Assembly (NCBI GenBank): GCA_016209865.1
Contig: JACQVL010000040.1
Coordinates: 1-13,033, forward strand
DNA from: Candidatus Latescibacterota bacterium
GTDB lineage: Bacteria; JAAXHH01; JACQVL01
Direction: 5' to 3'
DNA length: 13,033 bases
Part shown: piece by piece, positions 11,993 to 12,628 of the stretch
How positions within the stretch are numbered: position 1 is the first letter of the stretch
Layout: every line of letters begins with the position of its first letter
Program-made: the position numbers and the translations under genes
Notes under the pieces: model-generated
Databases searched by the model: none
Seen by the model: the letters and a program-made list of their open reading frames with translations, nothing else
What the model was told of the DNA's origin: nothing

Positions 11993-12019
11993 TTGACATC
12001 CTATCACCAGCCGTATACT
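11993..12019 (+). promoter_or_regulatory. Sigma-70-type promoter for tRNA-Arg (and possibly tadA)
   Basis: A perfect -35 box TTGACA (11993-11998) and a near-perfect -10 box TATACT (12014-12019) are separated by 15 bases, two short of ideal. Transcription would begin near 12026, about 24 bases before the tRNA. This is the clearest promoter in the window. Confidence 0.75.
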
Positions 12020-12049
12020 TTACGGTGTCCCGTTTGACCACCCCGGTTC

Positions 12050-12123
12050 GCGCCCGTAGCTCAATTGGATAGAGCGTCTGACTACGGATCAGAAGGCTGG
12101 GGGTTCAACTCCCTCCGGGCGTA
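12050..12123 (+). tRNA. tRNA-Arg (anticodon ACG)
   Basis: The acceptor strands GCGCCCG (12050-12056) and CGGGCGT (12116-12122) pair, with a terminal G-U wobble, followed by discriminator A. The D arm is GCTC...GAGC. The anticodon stem TCTGA/TCAGA encloses loop CTACGGA, giving ACG for arginine CGN codons. The T arm is GGGGG TTCAACT CCCTC, with one G-U pair. CCA is not encoded. A34 of this tRNA is the substrate of TadA, whose gene follows 28 bp downstream. Confidence 0.95.
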
Positions 12124-12151
12124 TTGACGCGCGAAAACGTGGCGTGCAGTG

Positions 12152-12628
12152 ATGACACCAGACGCAGACGATCACGAACGATGGATGCGGGTTGCGCTGG
12201 ACGAAGCGCGGCTCGCAGCGAAAGACGGTGACGTGCCGGTCGGCGCGGTGCTCGTCCGGGATGGGCTGATCCTCGGACGCGATCATAACCGGATCGAACG
12301 GACGCACGACCCGACCGCTCACGCGGAGATGCTCGCCATCCGGGCGGCCAGCGCGATGGTCGGGTATGAACGGCTGACCGGGACGACGCTCTACGTGACT
12401 CTGGAGCCATGCACGATGTGCGCCGGGGCGATCGTCCTCGCCCGGATCGACCGGCTGGTCTTCGGGGCGCACGACCCGAAAGCCGGGGCCTGCGGCTCGC
12501 TCATGGACATCGTCCGGGACACTCGGCTCAACCATCGGGTCGAAGTGACCGTCGGAGTGCTGGCTGACGAATGCGCCGCACTGCTGCGGGAGTTCTTTAA
12601 GGGGGTGCGGGCATCTCAGCTCCCGTAG
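12152..12628 (+). CDS. tadA: tRNA-specific adenosine deaminase (A34 to inosine)
   Basis: The 158-residue enzyme deaminates A34 of tRNA-Arg(ACG) to inosine, so that one tRNA reads CGU, CGC and CGA. The zinc and catalytic motifs are H57-A58-E59 (HAEM) and P86-C87-T88-M89-C90 (PCTMC). As I recall, E. coli TadA has the same residue numbers. The family signatures DVPVGAVLV (27-35) and DPKAGACGS (108-116) are present, and FF near the C-terminus is typical. ATG 12152 is chosen; the adjacent GTG 12149 would add one residue. There is no strong Shine-Dalgarno site, so translation may depend on processing of a joint tRNA-mRNA transcript. No terminator-like hairpin with a T-run separates it from the tRNA, so the promoter at 11993 probably drives both. 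Confidence 0.95.
   Translation: MTPDADDHERWMRVALDEARLAAKDGDVPVGAVLVRDGLILGRDHNRIERTHDPTAHAEMLAIRAASAMVGYERLTGTTLYVTLEPCTMCAGAIVLARIDRLVFGAHDPKAGACGSLMDIVRDTRLNHRVEVTVGVLADECAALLREFFKGVRASQLP

Follow-up and report, generated by a model that had tools for sequence, protein, structure and literature searches.

The tRNA-Arg(ACG)–tadA locus

The window, by which we mean the whole 13,033-nt stretch of DNA analysed here, is one whole contig of a draft genome (G000; 3.75 Mb in 356 contigs, ~83% complete). Towards its end it carries a tRNA gene, the gene for the enzyme predicted to edit that tRNA, and a second tRNA gene:

11993-12021, plus strand: putative promoter, with −35 TTGACA (11993-11998), a 17-nt spacer and −10 TACTTT (12016-12021)
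12050-12123, plus strand: tRNA-Arg(ACG), called by ARAGORN with Rfam in agreement; CCA not encoded
12124-12151, plus strand: tRNA–tadA spacer of 28 nt, the expected 5′ UTR of tadA after tRNA excision
12152-12628, plus strand: tadA, tRNA adenosine(34) deaminase, with an ATG start (GTG at 12149 is an alternative)
12629-13033, no strand assigned: repeat-rich spacer around tRNA-Ser, with two 135-nt copies 217 nt apart (repeat search)
12810-12896, plus strand: tRNA-Ser(CGA), the next cluster member, called by ARAGORN with Rfam in agreement

The open reading frame scored 193.2 bits against the curated TadA model of NCBIfam (NF008113, cut-off 150), and the encoded protein retains H58 A59 E60 (HAE) and P87 C88 xx C91 (PCxxC), both invariant across alignment A1; by family membership, the enzyme would edit A34 of tRNA-Arg(ACG). 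This match and the concordant tRNA calls confirm what an earlier, sequence-only reading of the same DNA had placed here, a tRNA-Arg(ACG) 28 bp upstream of tadA (the spacing is 28 nt to the ATG at 12152, and would be 25 nt if the GTG at 12149 were the start). One copy of the tRNA was found in the ~83% complete genome, as the sole full-length match in a similarity search; the next-best match was Arg(CCG), at 77% identity.

A strict sigma-70 scan returned no match, because the perfect TTGACA ahead of tRNA-Arg precedes a weak −10, whether read as TTGACA-15-TATACT or as TTGACA-17-TACTTT. We chose the 17-nt register because TTGAC[AT]-N17-TANNTT is conserved across relatives from the same order—in alignment, a site of this kind lies about 28 bases 5′ of tRNA-Arg in 16/16 order members. 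Despite the weak −10, the predicted promoter is well supported.

The sequence-only reading had also reported no terminator between tRNA and tadA, and a terminator search of the window's 28-nt gap, which is too short to hold one, found no terminator-like site. Among order relatives the gap is similarly short, often with a T-run at its start but without a separate hairpin before it, and contains no conserved promoter. For a promoter of tadA's own, which that reading had named as evidence against itself, the sequence offers a downstream candidate, TTGACG-18-AGTGAT, a poor match that is not conserved. The absence of a terminator after tRNA-Arg is weak evidence alone, since only 8 of the 45 tRNAs in genome G002 are followed by a recognisable one. 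As had further been claimed, the window's tadA has no strong ribosome site, the computed duplex amounting to −2.8 kcal/mol.

Upstream, a carbonic-anhydrase-like gene is separated from tRNA-Arg by ~6.4 kb in the window (5685-12050) versus 118 nt in G002 (L351:1919-2037), and the promoter–tRNA–tadA block is unchanged between the two despite these differing neighbours. The content of this ~6.4-kb interval, identified mostly by eye, includes RRM-like, large peptidase-like and VapC-like genes and one for a surface protein whose C-terminal domain is sorting-like; the VapC-like PIN-domain toxin gene (9425-9826) scored under its curated cut-off.

Conservation of the gene order

The order tRNA-Arg(ACG)–tadA–tRNA-Ser(CGA), with tRNA-Arg on the tadA strand, was found in 15/15 same-order relatives, which span two further families, and thus in 16/16 genomes with the window. 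In many of these relatives whose contig continues, Ser(GGA) and Ala(CGC) come after Ser(CGA) and lead to a large SRP RNA. G002 additionally has dnaX and recR beyond the SRP RNA, giving the cluster Arg(ACG)–tadA–Ser(CGA)–Ser(GGA)–Ala(CGC)–SRP RNA–dnaX–recR. The tRNA-Arg(ACG)–tadA pair belongs to this larger set of stable-RNA genes, which the sequence-only reading overlooked. The tadA–SRP RNA–dnaX–recR locus, with its genes on one strand, is present in relatives (dnaX and recR in G002); the window's contig goes no further than the repeat behind tRNA-Ser(CGA), and no SRP RNA was found in the window's own genome (~83% complete). The 135-nt repeat copies flank tRNA-Ser, one per side, and the second continues to the contig end, where another tRNA appears to start. 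Because the contig ends inside a repeat whose copy has the opening bases of a tRNA at its end, the rest of the cluster was probably lost to assembly. This repeat (CATTCCCGCGCAAGCGGGAATCCATTTCGTCCTTCGACCTTCG; interval 12629-13033) is dispersed, and parts of it are matched 46 times in the genome. G002 has 45 tRNA genes, every species in single copy (its three CAT tRNAs are fMet, Met-like and Ile2-like), and its one Arg(ACG) is the sole reader of CGU, CGC and CGA.

We then considered tadA in 120 genomes from outside the order, with most families represented once. A same-strand tRNA lay within 250 bases 5′ of tadA in 37/120, and the nearest was Arg(ACG) in 34 of those 37—fractions that are not prevalences, since members of the window's own order supplied most of the search profile and the loci were the best-scoring among the matches listed. 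The conserved order that the earlier reading had asked to see in relatives is thus found both within the order and, in 34/120 cases, in distant genomes. Among tRNAs within 300 nt 5′ of tadA in the 120 genomes, 36 were co-directional and 0 opposite. Ser(CGA) was the first tRNA within 250 bases 3′ of tadA in 53/120, compared with 34/120 for Arg(ACG) upstream, and the two linkages co-occur (Fisher p = 0.005, uncorrected for relatedness). An SRP RNA lay near tadA in 17 of the 39 linked non-order loci checked, and the arrangement Ser(TGA)–Ser(GCT)–Arg(ACG)–tadA–Ser(CGA)–Ser(GGA)–SRP RNA is nearly whole in several distant genomes. The Arg(ACG)–tadA pair is also kept where no Ser tRNA is nearby, and it occurs behind varied upstream tRNAs: Ser(GCT), Glu, Lys, Asp or none at all.

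Most sampled genomes are without the pair. Among the 80 named loci it occurs in Archangiaceae (L046), three Omnitrophota, Poribacteria, Scalindua and one doubtfully labelled record, and is absent from named Streptomyces and clearly labelled Proteobacteria. L059, labelled Puniceispirillum, was not accepted as an independent proteobacterial case because its listed relatives share TadA coordinates with genomes of the first survey, which makes the label doubtful; an Arg match at L074 (Streptacidiphilus) was dropped as a false tRNA call within a coding region, judged by eye. In some lineages the Arg slot is occupied by Arg(CCT) or Arg(CCG), which are not known TadA substrates. At L029, L049, L069, L084 and L086, Arg(CCT) lies directly 5′ of tadA and Ser(CGA) 3′, the named ones among these being Bacillota. 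A gain/loss count on a TadA tree of 198 rows, which is too weak for the purpose, gave 29 changes for Arg, 42 for Ser and three supported independent pairs.

The gap itself varies: spacing among linked loci runs from 0 to >100 nt, and at most of them the spacer is too short for a terminator plus a promoter. Four loci outside the order (L128, L129, L162 and L202) carry a terminator-like hairpin between tRNA-Arg and tadA, which would lower or abolish read-through there. At L128 and L129 this is a strong intrinsic terminator-like hairpin in a ~31-nt gap that reaches the tadA start codon, and it could act as an attenuator.

Two genes served as controls. For miaA, which encodes another tRNA-modifying enzyme and was the negative control, the fetched flanks of 30 loci contained no tRNA (0/30). 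For tilS, a CAT tRNA lay upstream on the same strand in 18/30 loci (L279-L308, from the order and other lineages), as at L292:1293-1366 and L297:1276-1349. The order's CAT tRNA at tilS appears to resemble elongator tRNA-Met rather than Ile2; in G002 the Ile2-like tRNA, the TilS substrate, lies elsewhere, and in two order genomes that we read an intrinsic terminator stands between tRNA-Met and tilS, where none stands between tRNA-Arg and tadA. We accordingly rejected tilS as a second enzyme–substrate pair. A Met tRNA that precedes tilS without a substrate relation weakens any argument from adjacency alone.

Transcription of the block and reasons for its persistence

Throughout the order the block keeps its anatomy, its co-orientation, its promoter site and an unbroken stretch from tRNA to tadA. 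From this anatomy and conservation we infer a single transcription unit, in which tRNA-Arg(ACG) and tadA likely share one transcript. An old stable-RNA operon would begin with this block at its 5′ end, the conserved promoter driving tRNA-Arg(ACG), tadA and probably tRNA-Ser(CGA), and in relatives read-through would continue into Ser(GGA), Ala(CGC) and the SRP RNA, towards dnaX. RNase P would cut the tRNA at its 5′ end and an endonuclease such as RNase Z at its 3′ end, which lacks CCA, and the tadA mRNA so released would have a ~28-nt leader and be translated separately; promoter strength would then set the joint output of tRNA-Arg(ACG) and tadA message. Taken as a whole—operon 5′ end, joint transcript, cleavage, separate translation and inherited order—we regard this reading as probable. 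In Bacillus subtilis the genes that follow yaaJ (scr-dnaX-yaaK-recR) have promoters of their own (PMC10454642), so that a single transcript need not cover the whole cluster.

Why the order is kept is most simply explained by inheritance of the cluster, which would be sufficient; we favour it over enzyme–substrate matching. It accounts for the SRP RNA and the Ser tRNAs, and also for the occurrence of Arg(CCT) or Arg(CCG) in the Arg slot; an added benefit from a fixed TadA:tRNA-Arg ratio is possible. Matching proper would mean that the pairing of substrate and editor was itself selected, one promoter fixing their ratio, with prompt editing of the tRNA and limited stray editing of mRNA. Matching draws on the predominance of Arg(ACG) directly upstream of tadA (34/37), even at loci whose other tRNAs differ or are missing, on the persistence of the pair away from Ser tRNAs and behind varied upstream tRNAs, on the single Arg(ACG) of G002 that alone reads its three codons, and on E. 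coli, where competition between tRNA-Arg2 and mRNAs for TadA sets editing levels (PMC13170351). However, Ser(CGA), which is not a substrate, is linked to tadA at more of the surveyed loci than is Arg(ACG), some lineages have in the Arg slot an Arg tRNA that is not known to be a TadA substrate, and most sampled genomes live without the pair. With these counts and the four hairpin loci, the earlier suggestion that the pairing could match enzyme supply to substrate is not supported in the form in which it was put, and we consider selected matching somewhat unlikely. The sequence-only reading had also suggested that tadA translation could be tied to tRNA processing; the uncut tRNA might mask the start, or its removal might yield a near-leaderless message. 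Inferred start codons do lie close to the tRNA end in several lineages—at 0 (L059), 1 (L151), 6 (L140 and L161), 7 (L018) and 9 nt (L171)—so that cutting there would leave a leaderless or nearly leaderless tadA mRNA, and the tadA leader in the order lacks a strong Shine–Dalgarno (SD) sequence. But SD strength did not differ between tRNA-Arg-linked and unlinked tadA genes (p = 0.53), for which reason we did not take the weak ribosome site to indicate coupling, and the wide range of spacings, together with start codons that are themselves read from sequence, counts further against it. The tie to processing is thus not upheld, a weak ribosome site being nothing special to linked genes, and we judge such coupling quite unlikely.

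A proposal that combines elements of both, in which TadA sits behind its own single-copy substrate tRNA in many lineages, with the ratio fixed and 3′ cutting often producing a near-leaderless message, seems to us unlikely; if true, A-to-I editing of mRNA would be buffered against growth phase, unlike in E. coli. Chance adjacency has next to no probability. A co-directional open reading frame does lie within 80 nt of about one quarter of G002 tRNA genes by a loose count, but the same tRNA in the same orientation occurs in every order genome and in 34/120 outside it, against none at the 30 miaA loci, and on the survey and this control we rejected chance.

Relation to known systems

A tRNA gene kept beside the enzymes dedicated to that tRNA is familiar from selC, near selA and selB, and from pylT, with pylSBCD. 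Those systems handle non-standard amino acids, whereas tRNA-Arg(ACG) and TadA have housekeeping roles. The tufB operon of E. coli and Salmonella (thrU-tyrU-glyT-thrT-tufB; PMC6134099) is similar in that tRNA genes precede, behind one promoter, a protein gene whose product acts on tRNA; by its sequence the window pair has the same layout, in that a predicted promoter precedes the tRNA while the 28-nt gap before the protein gene holds no conserved one. It differs from tufB in that EF-Tu binds nearly all elongator tRNAs, whereas TadA here would edit just the adjoining one, and in that more stable RNAs come after tadA. The arrangement would represent a variant of the tRNA–mRNA operon of the tufB type, in which the enzyme is paired specifically with its own substrate. 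In the open-access literature, which our search covered, we found no description of the tRNA-Arg(ACG)–tadA pairing, of its spread or of the intervening Ser and Ala tRNAs.

Downstream, the relatives resemble the B. subtilis locus tadA(yaaJ)-scr-dnaX-yaaK-recR in having tadA followed by SRP RNA, dnaX and recR; the accessible part of the account of that locus (PMC10454642) names no tRNA-Arg before yaaJ, whereas here tRNA-Arg(ACG) leads, and in relatives Ser and Ala tRNAs stand between tadA and the SRP RNA, unlike in the B. subtilis locus as described there. The survey reveals that Arg and Ser tRNAs form, together with tadA, SRP RNA and dnaX, an old cluster that many lineages have kept.

The in vivo regulation of tadA expression is little understood (PMC11472039). 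The pairing matters because competition between tRNA-Arg and mRNAs for TadA affects mRNA editing in E. coli, where the ratio of tRNA-Arg2 to TadA influences its extent (PMC13170351); bacteria in which a single promoter drives both substrate and editor would constitute a natural experiment on that ratio.
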